This document shows, piece after piece, positions 11,533 through 24,392 of a stretch of DNA of 64,000 bases. The stretch comes from Natrinema salsiterrestre. Lineage in GTDB: Archaea > Halobacteriota > Halobacteria > Halobacteriales > Natrialbaceae. The stretch lies in contig NZ_JAMQOT010000004.1 in the NCBI RefSeq assembly GCF_029502005.1, positions 1-64,000 of the forward strand, given 5' to 3'. A program made the translations under genes and the position numbers. Within the stretch, counting starts at the first letter, position 1. Each line of letters opens with the position of its first letter. The notes under the pieces were generated by a model. The model had not been told where the DNA came from and did not search any database. It saw only the letters and a list, made by a program, of their open reading frames with translations.

Positions 11533-14500
11533 ATGGCAGGACTGGTCGAGTACGATTACGATTTCTTCGAAGATTATCAGTCCAAAGTTCTCTCCGATCT
11601 ACCATCTATCGAACAGCTGATTCGCCTTGATGATGAGGTTGCGAACAAGGTCACGATGGCCCGATACGAAGGGCCAGTTGATCCGATCGAATGGAATGAC
11701 CTTGAACGATACTACAGTGATCTCTTTGCAGATTTTGTTACGGAACGTATCCAGGGGGTAGTTGACACTGAGCCTATCGAGACGAACCGGGATCGGTTTC
11801 ACACGTTTCGCCGCCATGTCGCCTCACTGAATAAGAATCTACCTGCTCAACGGACAGCACAAACGAGCGTCATCTCAAAGCCCGCAGAAACCGTCTTGCT
11901 CAAGCGATTACGACAGCTGGGATTTGACCCAAGTGCACTCGACATCACGCATATCGGCCGTGGTGGTGGCCTCTATCTTTTGGAACTCTTCGTGACAGCT
12001 GCTCAGCAGCAGGCACTCTCGGATACAGAGTTACTCACCGCATTGTTGGAGGAGGCCTCGTCGTTGGGTAGCTTAGGACGGGAGGAAGCGATGGCCCGCC
12101 TTCACAACCCTGTCCTGATGGTTTCTCTCTGGGATAATCAGCAGGCAGGGCTAGACAACTGGCTCACAAACGGACGTCACGGCATTCTCGAGATGGCGAC
12201 AGCAACCGGGAAGACTGTCGCTGGAATTGCAGCTATCGCCGAGTGCTGTGGAGTTCTTCCTAACGACCCTAACCACTCTCCACGAACAACAGATGCGAAT
12301 ATCATGGTAGTGGCGCACTCAAACGCCATTCTGAAGCAGTGGGAGCGAGAGATTCAGGAGAAGCTTGGTCTTCCGATGCCTGCAGGAAAGACGGGTGACA
12401 AAGCCGACCGACTCTCGTTCAATGGTGGAGAAGTCGAGTTTTACACCGCTCAGTCGCTCCTACCGAGGTACGACCGCGATCTCGAAAATAAATACGATCT
12501 CGTCATTTACGACGAAGTCCACCACTACTCGAATATCGACGGTTACGGAGCCGCAATCGATAGACCGAACTACGAATCCGCAATGGGTCTTTCTGCCACC
12601 ATCGGCGACGAGGGTGGACTGAAGCGGGAACAGCTTACCGAACTCTTAGGGGACGTCGTGTACACCTACGGGGTCGAAGACGCCCGCCGTGATGGCATCA
12701 TTCCCGACTTCGACTGGACTGTCCATCCAACACCACTCGACCCGTACGAGCGTGAGGAGTGGGAAGAGACCACTGAGTCGATCTCTGATCAATTCAAACA
12801 CATTCGTCGGTCCTCGGAAACCGAGCGAATCCTAAAGCGAATACCTGTTCCATTCACCGAACTCGAAGACTTAGGCGACTTCATTCGTGCCCACGAAGCC
12901 GCCTCGATGGCTCTCGACGACGACCAGATTCCGGACGACTGGTCGAACCTCCAGGCAACGATTCACTCGCGTACGTGGATTCGCCACCGCTCACAGCCGA
13001 AGATCGAGGGAGCCATCGAACTGGCAGAGGAGTATCTCTCGGATCCAGACCAGCCTGTCAAGGTCGTCATCTTCGCGATGGACATCGACACGGCTGACCG
13101 AATCGCCGACACTCTGAGTGACGTCACAGATAACGTCTACCGGGCACACAGCCAGCTTGAGAGCTCCTCCCGGAAGAACAACGAGCGAGTTCAGCAAAAC
13201 ATCGACGCGTTCGCAAACTGCGACAACGGTGTGTTGGTGTCACCGAAGATGCTCGACGAAGGTATTGACGTTCCCGACGCTGAGGTCGGGATCAACGTCG
13301 CTGGTACCAAGACGAAACTCCAACTCGTCCAGCGGATGGGACGGGTTCTGCGGAAGCACGGCGACCAGCGACCCCATTTCCACCACTTCATCGCAGTCCC
13401 TGACGAGAACTACATCGCAGGACTCGACTCCAAAGAGTATGTTCAGGAGCTTAACTGGGTTCGTGAACTCGGCGAAACGATCGGGGTCCAGCCTGTTATC
13501 GAGGAAGCAGGAGTGGACGCCGACCTCCTCGAGCGCGCAAAGCAGCGGGGACACGAACTGTGGGCTCGTGACCTTCTTGACGACCTTGAAATCGAAACAG
13601 TCCAGGGGAACGTTCATCTTGACCAGCTGCTCGAAGAGCTGACCGCCGAGGCAATCGAAATCCTCCTCGATGAACTCTGGCTTGGTGGAGAGTATGTTGC
13701 ACAGGATGACTGGGAGACTGCGATGGACCGGCTTCGGGATGACGAAGCACTCACTGTGGAAGGTCTCCAGCGCGTCTGGTGGCTCTTCCCTCTCTACCGG
13801 GAACGCCCGGAGGAACTGGAGGATCTGTTAACCGCATCATTTGAGGCTCTTTCAGAAGAGGACGTTCCCACGACTAGGAAAGGGAGAGACTCTGACAACT
13901 CAGACCAAGAGTCGACTAATGCTGATGACGGTCGCGTAGAGACGTCTTCTACCGAAAGAGACAATCAATCGAGCAGTTCCGAGGACGAAGGTCAACCGCG
14001 GGTATCGGGGGAACCCACGGAAGCGGGAGATTCAGAGTCGTCTAATGAGAAGTCGACATCGGCGACAAAGGCTGCTGAGCTTCAGGTGCCCGTTCCCCAG
14101 AGTGTGGACATCCTCGAAGAATTCGGTGTACAAAAATCGGCTATTGAATTAGACGCCAACCGAATCACCCAGGATGCTCAGCAGTCGGTTGACGATGAAC
14201 TGCTTACTGGGATCGGAAGTGGAGGACTGCTTTCCTCTGGATACCTCTACCAGCGCTCGCTTGCGACCTATCTTTATGAAGATGAGCAACCACAGTATTT
14301 GCTCGCATCTGAGGACCGTTCACCTGCCCTCTATATCTCAACCGATCTCGAACGATCGTTACCTAATTTAGACGGGTATCAGGCCATCACGGCGATTACA
14401 CCAACACGTGCACTCTGTGTCGTTGGGAGTGAACCTGAGAATGTCCCTGTACAGCTCCGCTATGAGGACCTCACGAAAGTCGAGATCGAGCAGAGTGGCC

Positions 14501-16257
14501 AGCTGTTCTGGAAAAAGTCCTCTCTCGTGCTTCGGACAGATGATCAGCGACTCACCATCCCGGACGAGACCGGAACTGATCTCAAGGCGGTCGCAGAGTA
14601 CATTTGCGCAGCGGCCTATCAACAGAAGCACGCTGCTGGACTCCGACTCCTGGATGCATGTAACTCGGTCCTCGCGACTGGTGAAGTCGATCGGCTCGGT
14701 TCGGTGCTGGAGATGGCTCGAGAGCAGTTGCAGTACGCGATTCACTGGGGGAATTCACACGACCTCGACACAGAGAGTTCACGCAGAGCACTCGAGTTGG
14801 TAGATACTTGTGTCGGGCAGTTCGACACTAAGCGTGACGTCCTCCGGTTATGGGGTGAGGTTCAACGAATACTGGTCGATGCTCGCCTGACGTCCCTCGA
14901 CAACGATGATCGCCTCGAGGAACTGTGCACAACCGCGCAGACGAAACTCGACAAACTGCTTTCGGGCAGTGTTCGGGGGAGCCAGTACCTTCAGACAGAA
15001 GCAACGCGCTTGCAGAATAGTCTTGAGGTGGCACTCCCGAGTGATGAGGATTCGAACACCGATACGGCAGAGGACGAGACGTCAGAACCGCCAGAGGGCT
15101 CGTCTAAGAGTAGTGAACGCAAACCGAAGCGACAACGGTTGCTCGACGAACTTCAGGCTCTCACAGAGGAACTTGGTGCGGTACCGAAGGCGCCCGAAAT
15201 GGACGAACAGGGAACGTACTCGACCCATGAGTATTATCAGACGTTTGGATCGTGGGACGACGCACTCGATGCAGCTGGACTTGACAAGAGAGCAGCTCTC
15301 ATCGACGAATTAGAACGAGTAGCGACAGAACTGGGTGAGATTCCCTCGACGACGCAAGTCGACGAGCACGGTCGATACAGTTCCGGTATGTACTCGAACG
15401 AGTTTGGGACCTTCACCGAAGCACGGGATGTCGCTAACTTTGAATTCCTCGAGGAAGAGCCGTCGAGAGAGGGAGAGAGCCAAAGCGAAACGGAACAAGA
15501 TGAAGACAGGGCAACCGAAAATCCAGACGCTGAACCGGCACGTGAGGCGCTAATTGCAGAGATTCAACGCCTAGACCGATCGACAGAGGAATTGCTACCG
15601 TACGCTTCTGAGATGGATTCTCGAGGAGAGTTCACTGCATACGGCTGTCAGCGTGAATTCGGCTCGTGGGACGACGCACTCGATGCTGCCGGTATCGATA
15701 AGCGGGAGCGACTGCTTGAGGAGCTTCGGCGTGTACGTGACGAGGTGGAACGAATCCCCAAAACGACAGACATGGATAACCATGGCCGAGTTTCAGCGTC
15801 TATGTATTCGAATTTCTTCGGTTCCTGGACCGAAGCGACCTCACTCATCGAAGATGCCACACTATCGGCTTCTGGAAAGGGAGATTCTACCACAACCTCA
15901 GAGGGAGATACACTGGATGAGAATGACGAAGATGTACTGACTTGGGAAGACATCCCCGGGAACAGCCGCCTTCCGGGACCCATCCCGATTCAGATTGTAG
16001 AAAAGCGTACCGCGCGGTCCGACCGCGTCGATGGCCGCTACCTAGTTCGAGACTTAGCTGGGACAGAGTTCGAACTCAAGGTCTGGGCTAAACACGGAAT
16101 CACGGTCGACTGGGAGCCGGGATGCTGGTACGTACTCTCTGAGGCACGGGGAACGGTCTGGGAAAGCGATGGGGAAGTCAACCGAATGCTCGACAGCACC
16201 CGAGACTTAGAGACTGTCGAGTGTCTGTCTCGACCAACAAAACAGGATCTACTGTAG
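11533..16257 (+). CDS. Large SF2 helicase with PH-like domain and four homing-endonuclease-associated repeats
   Basis: 1,574 aa. An N-terminal unknown region (1-200) precedes RecA domain 1 with Walker A ATATGKT (222-228), DEVH (327-330) and GLSAT (352-356); RecA domain 2 has LVSPKMLDEGIDVPDAE and motif VI QRMGRVLR (600-607). An acidic disordered linker (about 770-860) follows, then a PH-like beta domain (about 893-1030; LRYEDLTKVEIE), helices, and four repeats of the type LLDELQALTEELG ... YSTHEYYQTFGSWDDALDAAG (about 1203-1250, 1255-1301, 1337-1390, 1393-1440), matching homing-endonuclease-associated repeats that bind DNA. An OB-like C-terminus (about 1465-1565) closes it. Helicase plus DNA-binding repeats suggest a DNA-translocating defence effector or sensor; this is inferred. 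Confidence 0.85.
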   Translation: MAGLVEYDYDFFEDYQSKVLSDLPSIEQLIRLDDEVANKVTMARYEGPVDPIEWNDLERYYSDLFADFVTERIQGVVDTEPIETNRDRFHTFRRHVASLNKNLPAQRTAQTSVISKPAETVLLKRLRQLGFDPSALDITHIGRGGGLYLLELFVTAAQQQALSDTELLTALLEEASSLGSLGREEAMARLHNPVLMVSLWDNQQAGLDNWLTNGRHGILEMATATGKTVAGIAAIAECCGVLPNDPNHSPRTTDANIMVVAHSNAILKQWEREIQEKLGLPMPAGKTGDKADRLSFNGGEVEFYTAQSLLPRYDRDLENKYDLVIYDEVHHYSNIDGYGAAIDRPNYESAMGLSATIGDEGGLKREQLTELLGDVVYTYGVEDARRDGIIPDFDWTVHPTPLDPYEREEWEETTESISDQFKHIRRSSETERILKRIPVPFTELEDLGDFIRAHEAASMALDDDQIPDDWSNLQATIHSRTWIRHRSQPKIEGAIELAEEYLSDPDQPVKVVIFAMDIDTADRIADTLSDVTDNVYRAHSQLESSSRKNNERVQQNIDAFANCDNGVLVSPKMLDEGIDVPDAEVGINVAGTKTKLQLVQRMGRVLRKHGDQRPHFHHFIAVPDENYIAGLDSKEYVQELNWVRELGETIGVQPVIEEAGVDADLLERAKQRGHELWARDLLDDLEIETVQGNVHLDQLLEELTAEAIEILLDELWLGGEYVAQDDWETAMDRLRDDEALTVEGLQRVWWLFPLYRERPEELEDLLTASFEALSEEDVPTTRKGRDSDNSDQESTNADDGRVETSSTERDNQSSSSEDEGQPRVSGEPTEAGDSESSNEKSTSATKAAELQVPVPQSVDILEEFGVQKSAIELDANRITQDAQQSVDDELLTGIGSGGLLSSGYLYQRSLATYLYEDEQPQYLLASEDRSPALYISTDLERSLPNLDGYQAITAITPTRALCVVGSEPENVPVQLRYEDLTKVEIEQSGQLFWKKSSLVLRTDDQRLTIPDETGTDLKAVAEYICAAAYQQKHAAGLRLLDACNSVLATGEVDRLGSVLEMAREQLQYAIHWGNSHDLDTESSRRALELVDTCVGQFDTKRDVLRLWGEVQRILVDARLTSLDNDDRLEELCTTAQTKLDKLLSGSVRGSQYLQTEATRLQNSLEVALPSDEDSNTDTAEDETSEPPEGSSKSSERKPKRQRLLDELQALTEELGAVPKAPEMDEQGTYSTHEYYQTFGSWDDALDAAGLDKRAALIDELERVATELGEIPSTTQVDEHGRYSSGMYSNEFGTFTEARDVANFEFLEEEPSREGESQSETEQDEDRATENPDAEPAREALIAEIQRLDRSTEELLPYASEMDSRGEFTAYGCQREFGSWDDALDAAGIDKRERLLEELRRVRDEVERIPKTTDMDNHGRVSASMYSNFFGSWTEATSLIEDATLSASGKGDSTTTSEGDTLDENDEDVLTWEDIPGNSRLPGPIPIQIVEKRTARSDRVDGRYLVRDLAGTEFELKVWAKHGITVDWEPGCWYVLSEARGTVWESDGEVNRMLDSTRDLETVECLSRPTKQDLL

Positions 16258-16335
16258 TAGAGCGTCTGGTCCGACAGAAATCATACCTTCAAATAGGAAA
16301 TGTGAGATACTGCCCCGTGAATGACGGGGAAGATA

Positions 16336-17379
16336 TTACAACCACGATAGGCCAGTATTGAGTTCTTCGAGGAACGACGGCCGTATTTGGACGTCGGATG
16401 GAAACGCAAGTTGTTCTCCTTGCCGTTCAAGGATAGTTTCGCGAAGAAAAGGGTGGGCAGGGTCGAACGAAGGACTTGTTCGGATCCGATAGTCGCTGTC
16501 GATGGTAAACAGTGCGGCGTCGAACGCGCGGTGGTGCAGCGAATTCAGTACGAGGACGTTCTCAGGGTGTTCAGCGAGATCGGGGTGTTGACTTCGGGGG
16601 AGGATATGCGCTAGGTCCAAAAGATCACTCTCTTGAATGCCGGTCATCGTGCATGCGTGGCCATATCGATTGAACATGTCTTCACGGAAAGCGTCGCTTA
16701 CGACGGTTTCGGACCTTTCGTACCGTCGAACCTGTCCGCTCTGATCGAGAGTCTCGCCGGTCGGCCACTGAGAGACCTCACCAGTCTCAACCCAGTGTGT
16801 CCAGACGTCCGGAGCACGACCGTCATCGTTCATTCGGGCGCGATCGTGTAGCCACGAAACGGGGACAGACTGCGTATTGAGAATGGAGAAGTGGAAGAGG
16901 TAATTCGGGATCTGTGTGCCGGTATCGTCTTGGTAGGAGCGAACCTCGAAGTGTTCGGGGACACACAGCCCACAGAACTCGACGACGCCGGACTCCGGTT
17001 TGCGAAAGATGAAAACGGGCGGGACATCCTCCCGTCGACCGGACGCTGTTCGGTCGAACGCGGTCTTGATCTTCTTGTTCTTCGCAGACTCGTCGTACGG
17101 ATTGGTGGCTTTGGCGTCACCCCAGTAGCTGATGTATCCGGCGTTGACAGCGAGCGTATCTTCCCAGGGGTCGTCGTGCTGGGAAATGCCGCTATCGTTC
17201 GACACGAGGACGAGCGCCGCAGGCGTGTCGGATCGATCGGCGCCGAGGGTACGAATACCGCCTGTGTTCTTGATGCCGCTGTCGAGCGGGCCGCGGATCC
17301 ACCGCAGGAACTGGTCGTCAGAGTTCCGAAAGCTACCGGTGTCCCGGTACCGTTCGCCGACCCGGAACCTGTGGTTCAT
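16336..17379 (-). CDS. HNH_2-type endonuclease with N-terminal DNA-recognition-like domain
   Basis: 347 aa. C-terminal HNH: HACTMTGIQESDLLDLAHILPRS (first His about residue 258) then PENVLVLNSLHHRAFDAALF, matching the HNH_2 (PF13391-type) pattern. The N-terminal 200 residues contain GERYRDTG, WIRGPLDSG, VNAGYISYWGDAK and CVPEHFEVRSYQDD, a beta-rich arrangement reminiscent of SRA-like or modified-base-binding domains of type IV restriction enzymes, though I cannot confirm this. It is convergent with the helicase gene (78 bp apart). A paralogue sharing the HNH and the tail (PFLRETILERQGEQL) is at 23433-24392. A modification-dependent restriction enzyme is the leading hypothesis. Confidence 0.78.
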   Translation of the reverse strand: MNHRFRVGERYRDTGSFRNSDDQFLRWIRGPLDSGIKNTGGIRTLGADRSDTPAALVLVSNDSGISQHDDPWEDTLAVNAGYISYWGDAKATNPYDESAKNKKIKTAFDRTASGRREDVPPVFIFRKPESGVVEFCGLCVPEHFEVRSYQDDTGTQIPNYLFHFSILNTQSVPVSWLHDRARMNDDGRAPDVWTHWVETGEVSQWPTGETLDQSGQVRRYERSETVVSDAFREDMFNRYGHACTMTGIQESDLLDLAHILPRSQHPDLAEHPENVLVLNSLHHRAFDAALFTIDSDYRIRTSPSFDPAHPFLRETILERQGEQLAFPSDVQIRPSFLEELNTGLSWL

Positions 17380-17572: not shown

Positions 17573-18058
17573 TTATTCTTCCTCTCCCCCGACTTCAATC
17601 GTGACTGAGACATCATCTGGTGTTATCTCTGGTTCCGAAGAACAGAGGTAGACGCTTACCGCTACAATGTTCTCTAACCGTTCCAGACCTGCGCCGTTGA
17701 GTACGAACCTAAATGGGCATGTCAACCGGACAAGTTTCTCAACCGCGTCGATGTCATCAACGTCAATATCCTCGTCCGGTAGGTCGCCGAACAGGGCTTC
17801 CTCATTGTCGAATTCTTCCCAGCGATCGAGCAAGCAAAAATCAGCCAGTGCGTGGCGCACTGTTTCATGCAACCGCTCGTGGTAGCGATTGGGCAGTGTT
17901 TCGTTCCCATCAATCGCTTCTTGTATGTGGCCTCGATCGACCAACGTTAGAAACCCATCTGCCCAATCTTTGAGCGGTGGATCGAGTTCCGAGCCGCATT
18001 CGGGACAGTAGTTGGCCGTCGGTTCGACGGAGGAACTGCAATTGTCACAGATAGTCAT
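17573..18058 (-). CDS. Zinc-ribbon protein of unknown function
   Basis: 161 aa. The N-terminus is a classic zinc ribbon, CDNCSSSVEPTANYCPECGSE (four Cys in two CxxC pairs, residues 4-22). The rest is acidic and helical (ALADFCLLDRWEEFDNEEALFGDLPDEDIDVDDID) and ends in a beta segment. Haloarchaea have many such small zinc-ribbon proteins and their roles are mostly unknown. It lies between the HNH gene and the DUF4209 operon on the same strand but is separated from both by more than 150 bp, so it probably has its own promoter. Confidence 0.68.
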   Translation of the reverse strand: MTICDNCSSSVEPTANYCPECGSELDPPLKDWADGFLTLVDRGHIQEAIDGNETLPNRYHERLHETVRHALADFCLLDRWEEFDNEEALFGDLPDEDIDVDDIDAVEKLVRLTCPFRFVLNGAGLERLENIVAVSVYLCSSEPEITPDDVSVTIEVGGEEE

Positions 18059-18222: not shown

Positions 18223-18489
18223 CTATTTCCCCGGACTCTCGTCAGAATCGTCCTGCACATCGGCGATCTCGTTGACGACGTCTTTCACGTGCTGTTGGTG
18301 GGAAGCGGACGTCTGAACACTCTGGACGGCTTCGAGTTGATCGTTGACAACGGTGTTCTGCTGTGGCCCCCATTTCTCTGGTGGCTCGGACTTGATGTAC
18401 TCGACCCAGCGCTTGACCGCCTCGATCCGCGCTTAGCGGTTCTGCTCGTGTTTCGCGTCGAGGGAGTCAGGCACGTTTGAGTCACTCAT
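18223..18489 (-). pseudogene. 88-codon small gene interrupted by an in-frame TAA at codon 19
   Basis: The minus-strand ATG at 18487-18489 overlaps the stop of the upstream DUF4209-like gene (ATGA). The frame reads MSDSNVPDSLDAKHEQNR, then TAA (plus 18433-18435), then continues without another stop as ARIEAVKRWVEYIKSEPP ... VVNEIADVQDDSDESPGK to a TAG at 18223-18225. The part after the stop has normal haloarchaeal composition and amphipathic helices, so it was recently coding. A single C-to-T change (CAA to TAA, Gln) would explain it. Haloarchaea have no known TAA recoding, so I call it a pseudogene or a sequence error. Confidence 0.6.
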
Positions 18490-20822
18490 ATTTGTCTTTC
18501 AGCCATGGCGGAGGGTGATGTGAGGTCGGTTGCTAGTCGGTGTGCCCGGTCGGGGCCGATGCCGGGAATCGCTTGGAATGCGTTTTGATCCGCATCGAAG
18601 AACGCCTGTTCGCTATCGAAGTGGTCGGCGATGCGCCACGCAAGCGTTTCGCCGATGCCGGTAACGCGGGTGGCCTGTTCAAATATGTGCAGACACTCGT
18701 CGGTGGGGACGACCGTTTCTCGGTCAAGCCCTCTTATCGTGATGTCGCCCCGTTCTTCGAGTCGCCGGAGCGCGGTCCGGGTCGTGCTTTCGTCTATGCC
18801 GCGGACTTTCGCGTGTTCGATGATCGTATCTCGGGAGGGTGCGTCGGCGGGGGCGGCGGTCTGGTCATCGATTACGTTCGTAATGGTGGGGAGGATCAGA
18901 TCGTCCTGGTCGAGCCAAGTGTAGTCGATGCTGTCCGGGATGTTAGGGTAGTCGTCGCGGAGTTGGTCAATTTCGTCCCGGGTCAGTCCGGTCCCGTCAA
19001 TGAGATACCGGTGGATACGACCACGGTCAACGAAGAGATCGGTGTGGCCCTCGTGGCCGTTTTCGCGGACGACGACCAGGGTGTGGCCGTCGGTGGAGGT
19101 TCCATAGCCGATGATCTGCTTGTTCAGGTCTGTGAACAGGGAGAGGTCGGTCTCCTGGTCGTACTGTGTGGGCGGGGAGAGGGACTGCTGAGGAATACCG
19201 AAGTAGTTCAGATAGTCGGCGCTGTTGAGTGTGATGAGGCATTTCAGAATGTCGAACAGGGTTAGGACCGCATTCAGGTAGTTCGCATTCCGGTACCGAA
19301 GCTGGCCGTGGGAAAGCCGGTTTCGGAGGTTCATTCCTTCCCGGCTCGTGTATCGGTACCGGAGGTAGATGGCGTAGTGGCGTCCGAACAGGTCGCGTCC
19401 GTCGATGAACAGCCCTCCTAGGAGCTGTTGTTGGGTTCCTTCGTCGATGATTGTGTATGCTGGTCGTCCAATGGATTGGAGGGTGTCGACGATTGTTGCT
19501 TCGAGATGTGGGACGAAGAGGAACAGCGCCTGGCGGTGGTTGTCTTCGTGGAGTTCGAGGAGTGCGTCGGTGAGGAATGCTTCTGTATTGGGGGAAAGCG
19601 TGTCTCCGATCGCGAATATGTGGAAGATGTCGGATAACGTGAGGTGGCCTTGCTTGATCAGGCGGTACAGCGCGTTTCCTAGCGATGACATCTTCCCTGC
19701 TGCATGGTGGGCATAATTGTTCGGGATAGATTCAGGGTCCGAGGGGTCAACGGAGAGTGTGTGCGCTTCCGGGGAGATGATCTGGCGGCTGACGAGTTGG
19801 GAGATGACGAACTCCTCTGTTGACAAGCGAATCTTGTTCGGGTCGGGGATGAGGCTGCTGGAGAGTGCTAGGCAGTAGAGTGCGTACGACCCGGATCCGG
19901 AGGCCTGCTTCACATGCTTGAACCAGTCGATGTAGACCTGGGTGTTGTGCTCCATTTCTTCGGCGACAGCCTGCTGGAGGCTTTCGCCCTCAATCCCGTC
20001 CACATCCAGATCGTTCGGGTCGAATTCGTGGAGTTCGGTTTCGGTCCCGGTTCGGCGGGCTTGGATGGCCTCCTGTTTCCAGTCGCGCTTCTGTTCGTCA
20101 CTTAGATATTCAGCGCACTCGGCGACGCCACTCTGGAGGATGTCAGCCTTTTGTAACAGGCTCTCTCGCCCGACAAGTTCGGCTTCTCTTCGGTACGAGT
20201 CGACAAGTGCGGTTTCCACGTCCGATGTGTCTCGGTCGCATGCTTGTTTGAGCTCGTGCAGCAGCCGAAGGTATTCTCTGAGCTGGTTGAAGCGGTTGTC
20301 TGTACGGTAAGCGTCCGCGTTCGCCTCAATTAGGTCTATCCACCGGTCTCTGTGGGGGTCCGGTACATCGTCGATGTTGTCGATTGCGGCCTCGATGATT
20401 GAGGTTGTGAAGTTGGGGGAGTCGTCTATGTGGTAATTCTCTATGAATTCGAGTGCTTCTTCGAGTTCGTCTGTTGCGTCATGGCCCTGTAACCCTGCTT
20501 TGAGGTGGATTCGCCGATACTGGTATTGGGCAGTGACGTTCACCCATCCGCGGTCCTCTGCGTCGGCGATGGCGTCCTCGAACTGGTCCAGTGCATCACG
20601 GGCTGATTGGAATGTGCCGTCGCTGTACCAGTCCTCAAGGTTGTCCACGAGATCGGGCAGCAGGTATTCACCGGCCATTTCGTCGAGGTGGAGCCAGGTT
20701 TCTTCGCTGAGTTCTTCCTCATTTTCAACTGAATCGAAAATTCGATCTAACTGTAGAGCAAAGTGGAAATCCTCCCCGGGGTCTGCCCGCGCCCTGTCGA
20801 GTGCATCGAGTAACCGGACCAT
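18486..20822 (-). CDS. DUF4209-like protein with C-terminal helix-hairpin-helix
   Basis: 778 aa from the ATG at 20822 (MVRLLDALDRARADPGE); the frame opens upstream to 20870 but that part looks non-coding. The long helical body contains, near residue 530, REGMNLRNRLSHGQLRY, matching the RNxxxHG-type motif of DUF4209 proteins and recalling HEPN-like nucleases. A winged-helix-like segment follows (TIIEHAKVRGIDESTTRTALRRLEERGDI), and the C-terminus is a HhH pair (VTGIGETLAWRIADHF ... FQAIPGIGPDRAHRLA), which binds DNA non-specifically. It overlaps the small broken gene by ATGA. Defence or nucleic-acid surveillance is plausible, given the neighbours. Confidence 0.7.
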   Translation of the reverse strand: MVRLLDALDRARADPGEDFHFALQLDRIFDSVENEEELSEETWLHLDEMAGEYLLPDLVDNLEDWYSDGTFQSARDALDQFEDAIADAEDRGWVNVTAQYQYRRIHLKAGLQGHDATDELEEALEFIENYHIDDSPNFTTSIIEAAIDNIDDVPDPHRDRWIDLIEANADAYRTDNRFNQLREYLRLLHELKQACDRDTSDVETALVDSYRREAELVGRESLLQKADILQSGVAECAEYLSDEQKRDWKQEAIQARRTGTETELHEFDPNDLDVDGIEGESLQQAVAEEMEHNTQVYIDWFKHVKQASGSGSYALYCLALSSSLIPDPNKIRLSTEEFVISQLVSRQIISPEAHTLSVDPSDPESIPNNYAHHAAGKMSSLGNALYRLIKQGHLTLSDIFHIFAIGDTLSPNTEAFLTDALLELHEDNHRQALFLFVPHLEATIVDTLQSIGRPAYTIIDEGTQQQLLGGLFIDGRDLFGRHYAIYLRYRYTSREGMNLRNRLSHGQLRYRNANYLNAVLTLFDILKCLITLNSADYLNYFGIPQQSLSPPTQYDQETDLSLFTDLNKQIIGYGTSTDGHTLVVVRENGHEGHTDLFVDRGRIHRYLIDGTGLTRDEIDQLRDDYPNIPDSIDYTWLDQDDLILPTITNVIDDQTAAPADAPSRDTIIEHAKVRGIDESTTRTALRRLEERGDITIRGLDRETVVPTDECLHIFEQATRVTGIGETLAWRIADHFDSEQAFFDADQNAFQAIPGIGPDRAHRLATDLTSPSAMAERQI

Positions 20823-20995
20823 ACGGAATACCGGATCCCCGATTATGTAAAGATGGCAGACGTGTGCCACTCTCGAATTGGTGCTCTAATCAATCTGTCT
20901 GAGGCCGTCGTCCAGCTCCGCAGTTAGTTTCTCGCCCTCGACGACGATGAATCAGCTGTCAACGATACGTGGCAAAGAAATGGTGGTCGGGTTAC

Positions 20996-22009
20996 TTAGA
21001 GCCGATCCAGGTAGTCGCGGCGCTGTTCCATCTTTTCTTTCTCGGTACGCCGATCGTAGTGCTGTTCGATGACCGCGGGGCTCACGTTTGCCCGGTCACT
21101 CACGACATTGTCCGGAAGATCACTGTTAAGCGAGTGCGTGATGCTGCCTCGCCGGATCGCGTGGGGGTTGACGTTCGCGGGACACCTGAACGCCTCTTGG
21201 TCGTTGACAGCAGCCTCACACTCTTCTGGGTCCCGATCCTCGGGGCATTCTGCCCCACGGAAGCACGGCCGGGTCGCCTGGTAGACGTACTTCCGAAGTG
21301 TAGTCTTGTTTGCGCGGCCCTCCCGCGTCGCGACGAGCGGTTCACGGCCGAAGTCGTCAGTCACGTTCGGTCGCTTCTCTTCGATCCAGTCGTCGAGCAG
21401 CATGCAGATGTCATCCGACAGCGCGACCAGGCGCTCGCCGTCTTTCTTGTTCTTGATTGGCGTGTCAGTATCCGGGCGGTGGTGAACCTCGATGTACTGC
21501 TCGCCGGGATTGTAGTCGTCGACGTCGAGAGCGTTGACGCTGCTGACACGCATCATCGTGTGCCACATCAGCGCGACGGTGACGTGTTCACGGGATGCGT
21601 AGTCGTACTTGGCGAGGTACGAGAGAACCGCTTCGGCTTCCTCGGTCTCCAGCATCTCGTCGCGGGTGTTTTGCTCTGGCGTCATCGACGGCGAACGGAC
21701 CTTCGTCGAGAGGTCCTGTTCGACGGCGTCGATCGACTCGGCCCAGCGGATGAACACGCGCAGCGTGTCCATTTGGGTCTTCTCGCTGGCGACGGAGAGG
21801 TCACCGTCGTCGCGCCGCCAGAGGCGGTACTGTTGGATTTTGCGCCCGGTGAGGTCGTTGAGGTTGTCGATGTCCTCCATCTCACACCAGCGCAGGAAGT
21901 GCTTGAGGCGGTACCTGTGCGACTGAATCGAACTCTCGGCGAGTTCGGCTTCCTTGTCCGTGAGGTACAGCTCGAGTGCTGTCTCCGGATCGATTGGCTC
22001 GAGACTCAT
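20996..22009 (-). CDS. Tyrosine site-specific integrase of the island
   Basis: 337 aa from the ATG at 22007-22009 (MSLEPIDPETAL); upstream codons to 22225 run through the att site and are rejected. The N-terminal SAM-like/core-binding domain (about 1-110) precedes a catalytic domain with Arg in MWHTMMRVSSVNAL, box II His/Arg in NPHAIRRGSITHSL, and nucleophile Tyr in IEQHYDRRTEKEK. A cysteine-containing insert (CFRGAECPEDRDPEECEAA) is typical of haloarchaeal integrases and may bind zinc. It lies 210 bp from a 3'-tRNA fragment, so it is very likely the enzyme that inserted this island. Confidence 0.88.
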   Translation of the reverse strand: MSLEPIDPETALELYLTDKEAELAESSIQSHRYRLKHFLRWCEMEDIDNLNDLTGRKIQQYRLWRRDDGDLSVASEKTQMDTLRVFIRWAESIDAVEQDLSTKVRSPSMTPEQNTRDEMLETEEAEAVLSYLAKYDYASREHVTVALMWHTMMRVSSVNALDVDDYNPGEQYIEVHHRPDTDTPIKNKKDGERLVALSDDICMLLDDWIEEKRPNVTDDFGREPLVATREGRANKTTLRKYVYQATRPCFRGAECPEDRDPEECEAAVNDQEAFRCPANVNPHAIRRGSITHSLNSDLPDNVVSDRANVSPAVIEQHYDRRTEKEKMEQRRDYLDRL

Positions 22010-22218
22010 AGTCGTGAGTCGCGAACCGATAACGGGTCGATCTGAACTCCGGGATTTCCCTCCGTTCGTCAGACTGAACGAGAGGAATCCTGAGGGCGTC
22101 TGAGGCCCTGTGAGCCTGCAGCGCCCATGTTTCTGTCGCGAACGAATTCGTGAGCGGCAGATACCGGATCGCGAAGGATTTGCGGTAGACGGCGGCAAAC
22201 GAAGCGAGCCGACGGCGT

Positions 22219-22240
22219 GGTTCAAATCCCGTCGCGCCCA
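22219..22240 (+). other. att site: 3' tRNA fragment (T-loop to acceptor end)
   Basis: GGTTCAAATCCC followed by GTCGCGCCCA reproduces the T-loop, T-stem 3' strand and 3' acceptor strand of a tRNA. No matching 5' acceptor strand (GGGCGCG) or anticodon arm lies upstream, and the 5' side of the T-stem is already mismatched, so this is a fragment rather than a gene. Such 22-base 3'-tRNA duplications mark the distal end of tRNA-integrated elements; the intact tRNA should lie beyond the left edge of the window. Confidence 0.7.
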
Positions 22241-23432: not shown

Positions 23433-24392
23433 ATGCCCGTACAGGCGATCAATGATTGGCTCGCGCTCCTCGAGCAAGAGGCTCAAGAGCGCAATATCTC
23501 TGTGGATACTGATATTGATGGCCGTATTTTCCATTTTCATCTCGGCGACGATCCCGGAATCATCGGAAAGGTACGCTATTCCGAGAAAAAAGAGCGGAAC
23601 TACGAAAACGAACAGGGCCTGACCCATATCTGGCATCGATACAATCGGGAAAAGGATCGAATTCGGGACGGGTCCGAACGCAACGTCGTAAACGTCACTC
23701 TCGATATCTGGGAGAAGGACGAGTTTGACCCAAAAGATCATCATTTCATCTTCTTGACTGAACAAATGATCGCCGAGGATACCTACTCGAAAGGTGACCA
23801 GAAAATCCACATTCTAGATGACGGGAAATACAAAGGACCGTTATCGAAATATGTCGATGATTGGGATTCTATATTCGAGTATGCAGCGGGAGAAGCATCT
23901 CCAACACCGACCACGACCTCCGAAGGTGAAATCGACACGCAGTCCCAGGAAACCGATGGCGATGTCTCGGCTCCAGATGATCTCTCTGGAACCGTGCGTG
24001 AAGACACACAAACGCAGGTACGTGTTAGTGAAGAATTCAAGCGAGCAGCCTACGACCAGTTCGAGAATCAGTGCGTACTCACTGGGATTGAACGGCAGGA
24101 ACTGCTGACGGTGTCTCATGTACTCGACCGCGCTACCAATCCGGAGATCGCTCAAGACATCGAAAACGTGCTGATTCTCGATTGGACACATCACACCGCC
24201 TTCGATGCCGGTCTGTGGACGTTCGATGAACTCGGCCGGATCTGGATCAAGCCCCAATTTGATACTGAAAGTCCGTTCCTCAGAAGCTCACTGATCGATA
24301 GACACGGCGAGAAAATAGATGCTCTCACCGACGTGGGCGAGGAGTACATCGAACAACACAATGACGAACTTCAGTGGTGGCCACCGAGATAA
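23433..24392 (+). CDS. HNH_2 endonuclease, paralogue of the island HNH protein
   Basis: 319 aa. The N-terminal half (DIDGRIFHFHLGDDPG, RYSEKKERNYENEQG) is beta-rich and unrelated by eye to the 16336-17379 N-terminus. A polar linker (about 150-195) leads to the HNH: FENQCVLTGIERQELLTVSHVLDR and IENVLILDWTHHTAFDAGLW, then SPFLRSSLIDRHGEK. In the second half the paralogue's VLNSLHHR is VLDWTHHT, so the usual Asn is an Asp here, which some HNH families tolerate. AT-rich upstream region and codons indicate transfer. Probably a restriction-type nuclease. Confidence 0.78.
   Translation: MPVQAINDWLALLEQEAQERNISVDTDIDGRIFHFHLGDDPGIIGKVRYSEKKERNYENEQGLTHIWHRYNREKDRIRDGSERNVVNVTLDIWEKDEFDPKDHHFIFLTEQMIAEDTYSKGDQKIHILDDGKYKGPLSKYVDDWDSIFEYAAGEASPTPTTTSEGEIDTQSQETDGDVSAPDDLSGTVREDTQTQVRVSEEFKRAAYDQFENQCVLTGIERQELLTVSHVLDRATNPEIAQDIENVLILDWTHHTAFDAGLWTFDELGRIWIKPQFDTESPFLRSSLIDRHGEKIDALTDVGEEYIEQHNDELQWWPPR

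Follow-up and report, generated by a model that had tools for sequence, protein, structure and literature searches.

A probably orphaned and recently broken antitoxin-like gene in Natrinema salsiterrestre and the haloarchaeal NTase/small-protein pair of its relatives

A small gene interrupted by a single in-frame stop codon lies on the minus strand of the window, the term used here for the whole stretch of 64,000 nucleotides that was analyzed (contig NZ_JAMQOT010000004.1, positions 1 to 64,000). It is probably an orphaned, recently broken, antitoxin-like copy of a gene for a small helical protein, whose family elsewhere forms the second member of a pair and overlaps the gene of a nucleotidyltransferase (NTase) with a predicted MenT1 fold. 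The antitoxin role of the small protein is a best guess that the gene pattern and the predicted fold suggest. The frame itself is a real gene, and the TAA is a real interruption in the given sequence. The frame consists of the following parts.

18223 to 18489, minus strand: broken small gene of 88 codons plus stop, a probably orphaned relative of the second gene in a haloarchaeal NTase/small-protein pair (translation, homologues, profile).
18433 to 18435, minus strand: codon 19, an in-frame TAA that no other examined copy shares (translation, alignment).
18226 to 18432, minus strand: conserved core, the 69 codons 3' of the stop, without a start codon ahead of it (translation, homologues, profile).

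Translation from 18489 to 18223 yields 18 residues, the TAA (18433-18435), 69 residues, and then TAG. The preliminary description of an 88-codon frame with a lone TAA at codon 19 and an ATGA start in the DUF4209 gene is thereby confirmed, with the ATG of the small gene (18489-18487) overlapping the TGA of its neighbor. The suggestion that the codons after the stop encode a natural protein also holds, as these 69 residues retrieve 22 loci in named haloarchaeal genomes at 49-86% identity, the best match being that of Halospeciosus flavus (86%). The frame is open across the stop position in all 22, so it is not a product of chance. A profile built from 58 relatives aligns to the window both before the stop (profile positions 1-18, E 4.9e-5) and after it (profile positions 21-84, E 1.4e-30), and the family has seven invariant columns, all of which except M1 fall 3' of the window stop. 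Two relatives, L009 and L026, have no ATG at the aligned start, and L026 carries an insertion further along the frame.

The identity of codon 19 was compared across ungapped copies with checked anchors. The 67 copies other than the window carry GAG (50), CAG (9), GAA (4), GCG (2), GAC (1), or AAC (1), and TAA occurs in the window only (1 of 68 ungapped copies, window included). Because the stop is absent from every other copy examined, it was rejected as a shared or functional feature. The single-base change from CAA to TAA that had been proposed finds no backing, since CAA is present at codon 19 in none of the 67 other copies and the window differs from its nearest relative, L005 (CAG GAG), at three of the six bases of codons 19 and 20. 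A restart downstream of the TAA was rejected as well, as no ATG, GTG, or TTG stands in frame in the window sequence from the stop up to the conserved core.

The gene directly upstream of the small gene in its relatives is mostly not the DUF4209 gene that stands there in the window but an NTase of ∼200 residues, recognized from an NTase-like motif read by eye and supported by the predicted fold. Where the NTase is intact, the end of its gene runs 23 nt into the small gene in 50 of 62 copies. The pair is widespread in haloarchaea (for example, L172:1915-2734 and L005:5361-6204), and both genes are annotated as 'hypothetical protein' in a named plasmid record. Within the order, the NTase was matched in 99 of 392 genomes and the small gene in 137 of 392. 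The query that found the NTase in those 99 genomes gave no match in the window's own assembled genome. An NTase at another site there was accordingly rejected, as were NTase remnants in the window other than a 3' tail.

The association between the two genes is asymmetric. For the converse test, 84 near full-length NTase loci were picked by judgement, with partial matches left out. A small gene lies directly downstream of all 81 full-length NTases, intact in 80 cases and cut by the contig end in one, while the other three loci have NTase matches of fewer than 180 profile positions. In the census of the small gene, 118 copies were classed, a number reduced to 116 once copies with identical cores had been merged and one duplicate entry dropped; the sample combines loci already retrieved with 60 places from the genome match list, most places with E above about 3e-15 being left out. 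The small gene is intact in 62 of 62 copies beside an intact NTase, 24 of 27 beside a partial NTase, and 20 of 27 without an NTase, where the boundary between 'partial' and 'absent' is our own cut of 15 profile positions. Broken copies without an NTase are L001 (the window), L026, L043, L134, L135, L158, and L161; those with a partial NTase are L046, L130, and L155. The difference between the intact-NTase and absent-NTase classes has a Fisher p of 1.3e-4, uncorrected for relatedness. The general logic of two-gene toxin/antitoxin (TA) systems fits these counts, as no full-length NTase examined lacks the small gene, whereas 27 of 116 copies of the small gene have no NTase. Because the NTase is not seen alone while the small gene can be, we infer a toxin/antitoxin pattern in which the small gene has antitoxin-like polarity.

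Solitary copies of the small gene are found in several settings. Six intact copies (L011, L013, L033, L090, L024, and L127) stand 26-108 nt behind genes of one HTH-like family. For four of these solo tips (L011, L013, L033, and L090), omega is 0.098 and neutrality fits about 7.8 lnL worse. As these copies are under selection, loss of the NTase alone does not make the gene useless, and partner loss seems to permit decay without forcing it. Other copies lie behind genes labeled PIN-like by eye (L025:9002-9807, L019:5082-6201, L121, and L161); the two PIN-like proteins gave no Pfam match at E 0.01 or better. In L019, a UPF0175 gene precedes the PIN-like gene and the small-gene copy, and L025 also holds an NTase-linked copy 3.6 kb away. 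A search of viral contigs for relatives gave 15 pattern matches, none of which was confirmed.

The two proteins of the pair differ in what modeling and database searches reveal. The NTase model (pLDDT 95.2) has MenT1 as its top match (Foldseek E 3.3e-7; Z 15.7 over 174 residues, rmsd 3.6), ahead of the best non-MenT chain, 5uvd (Z 12.1), and of ANT(2'')-Ia (Z 11.3), and the predicted structure is thus of the MenT type. By sequence, the haloarchaeal NTase is outside the MenT family. None of 47 NTases has an AbiEii (DUF1814) Pfam match at E 0.1 or better, and the NTase-family matches at this threshold are all weak (DUF2204 in 3 of 47 and DUF6036 in 1 of 47). The small protein is predicted with modest confidence (pLDDT 75.6) to consist of helices only. 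A fold search with this model gave no fold match (Foldseek returned one chain only, and MenA1 was absent), and Pfam, NCBIfam, and PADLOC gave no informative match. A sequence match of its profile to yeast STH1 (E 7.4e-4) is taken as chance similarity of charged helices.

The pair resembles several described systems in part. Like MenAT1 (MenT1/MenA1, Rv0078A/Rv0078B), it combines an NTase of ∼200 residues and predicted MenT1 fold with a small helical protein in which no enzyme domain was detected; MenA1 is a 68-residue helical antitoxin encoded upstream of menT1, according to the available part of PMC10435456. In contrast with MenAT1, the haloarchaeal NTase, only about 15% identical to MenT1, is encoded ahead of its partner in an overlapping arrangement, and neither the sequence searches nor the one-chain fold result linked the small protein to MenA1. 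The logic of the two systems may nevertheless be the same. HEPN-MNT modules share the gene order, with the NTase first and a small helical protein second, as set out in the part of PMC3710099 available. However, 58 copies of the small protein share no invariant Rx4-6H, and no HEPN Pfam match was obtained at E 0.1 or better, a criterion that is not absolute as some known HEPN families do not have the motif. A point of likeness to AbiE (AbiEii NTase toxin/AbiEi) is that PADLOC weakly matches the NTase to AbiEii (E 0.0066), yet Pfam AbiEii is missing from the 47 NTases at E 0.1 or better and the partner is an 87-residue protein that matches no known antitoxin family. Consistent with orphan, or solitary, antitoxins, antitoxin-like genes occur here without a toxin, some intact and some broken; unlike those, the present family is archaeal and was not found under an earlier name, and its antitoxin role is putative. 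A literature search at listing level, mostly without subscription papers, found no description of the NTase/small-protein pair.

In the window, the small gene follows a DUF4209 gene, and the region where the two meet contains the following features.

18467 to 18498, minus strand: remnant of an NTase 3' tail that runs into the beginning of the small gene in a different frame, with a TGA in the NTase frame (compare L005:5941-5963).
18490 to 18512, minus strand: apparent recombination joint, where the similarities to both sets of relatives end.
18486 to 20870, minus strand: open DUF4209 (HEPN-class) gene of 794 residues with C-terminal DUF5817_CT and helix-hairpin-helix domains, its last ∼7 residues unlike those of relatives (domain and relative comparison).
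19308 to 19325, minus strand: Rx4H motif RNRLSH, residues 516-521 of the HEPN/DUF4209 domain (sequence; meaning of the motif from the available part of PMC3710099).

DNA similarity to the DUF4209 relatives stops at 18498 (L057 and L058) or 18512 (L059), and similarity to the relatives of the small gene starts about 9 nt 5' of its ATG. The DUF4209 genes of L057, L058, and L059 are about 88% identical to that of the window, with another C-terminal end and other DNA after it, and none of the three is followed by the small gene. Because the similarities on both sides end at the joint and these relatives have no small gene, the ATGA overlap appears to be a product of recombination and not a conserved coupling. 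A conserved translational coupling is thus not borne out, and intact homologues, which the preliminary description proposed to look for beside DUF4209 genes, are not found in the three close relatives. The first 23 nt of the window small gene, together with a few preceding bases, match the tail of an NTase gene, and the same TGA in the NTase frame is present in L162, a copy whose NTase match is no more than short and partial. Another such joint is seen in a genome of the window's genus, in which a diverged copy starting with ATA (L043:1441-1671) shares a few bases with an HTH gene. When plasmids were searched for the window joint, the matches, in two records, covered either DUF4209 or the integrase and never the joint itself.

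The DUF4209 protein matches PF13910 at 28 bits, above the cutoff of 22.3, which places it in the HEPN superfamily, consistent with the assignment of DUF4209 to HEPN families in the part of PMC3710099 available. The RNRLSH motif is also present in the three close relatives, and PADLOC returned PDC-S39 as a candidate match. As the protein is about 88% identical across genomes of different families, its gene is probably horizontally mobile. An integrase adjoins it at 20996-22225; part of this stretch aligns to a Haloterrigena plasmid with 92.9% DNA identity, and the aligned part does not include the DUF4209 gene. The surroundings include a defence-like cluster (11533-17379 and 23433-24392) with a helicase containing four HNH_repeat stretches, an AspBHI-N and HNH endonuclease, and a second HNH protein, as well as a zinc-ribbon-like protein (17573-18058).

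The age of the stop is constrained by the selection acting on the rest of the gene. With the stop masked, 80 codons give an omega of 0.083 for the window branch and 0.081 for the background, and making the branch neutral costs 4.65 lnL. When the test is restricted to codons 20-80, omega is 0.11 and the cost of neutrality is a mere 1.83 lnL. Most of the window branch was therefore spent under purifying selection, and the stop either arose recently or is an error in the sequence. If the TAA came from sequencing or assembly, the gene would be intact, solitary, and antitoxin-like, and co-translated with the DUF4209 gene. This is unlikely, although it accounts for selection equal to the background, for a stop found in no other copy examined, and for the scarcity of decay besides the stop, which counts against the orphaned and broken gene that we favor; intact solo copies, moreover, do exist. 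Against an error, the three differences from L005 among the six bases of codons 19 and 20 are more than one miscalled base, and real loss would be unsurprising in a genome without the NTase. Readthrough of the stop into a regulated or recoded 88-residue product, which the preliminary description had also considered, is highly improbable. The frame around the stop does look selected over most of the branch, but the stop is carried by no other copy examined. Of the 43 tRNA matches in the genome, ARAGORN decoded 41 (all but those at L198 and L240); none of the 41 anticodons reads TAA, so a suppressor tRNA was rejected. Haloarchaea are not known to have a mechanism of TAA recoding.

The remaining alternatives concern the partner. 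If the ATGA overlap is taken at face value, the small gene would be a true ancestral companion, perhaps the antitoxin, of the DUF4209/HEPN gene, and would just have been lost; DUF4209 is an HEPN domain (PMC3710099), here with an intact Rx4H motif, and could conceivably belong to an RNase toxin needing a partner. This is very unlikely, and DUF4209 was rejected as the ancestral partner, given the missing small gene in three relatives at about 88% identity, the break in similarity on both sides of the joint, and the NTase tail still in place. It is also rather improbable that the small protein serves haloarchaea as a portable, antitoxin-like guard, moved repeatedly behind unrelated toxin-like genes (the MenT-fold NTase, PIN-like genes, and here an HEPN/DUF4209 RNase), in which case the window would record a recent change of partner and then a nonsense mutation. 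Such swapping has some room because other copies stand behind HTH-like or PIN-like genes, the latter so labeled by eye.

For the favored orphaned and broken gene, the ancestral state would be a small gene behind an NTase, the arrangement seen in relatives, and the pair would act as a TA module whose toxin is the NTase and whose antitoxin is the small protein. Of the NTase gene, the assembled genome retains the 3' tail only, and a secondary joint, apparently made by recombination, has placed the small gene behind the DUF4209/HEPN gene. With the NTase gone, the antitoxin would no longer be required and a nonsense change could be tolerated, presumably leaving an 18-residue peptide as the only present product. 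The earlier proposal of a recently lost partner survives as regards the recent breakage of the small gene, but not as regards DUF4209, as the regular neighbor is the NTase; of the toxin or immunity function it raised, an immunity-like, that is antitoxin-like, role is the best guess from gene pattern and fold.

As a remnant, the broken gene is ordinary, but following its relatives led to a common gene pair of haloarchaea, so far unnamed, with a TA-like gene pattern and a predicted toxin-like fold, whose scattered copies provide natural cases of antitoxin-like genes surviving, or dying, once the partner is lost.
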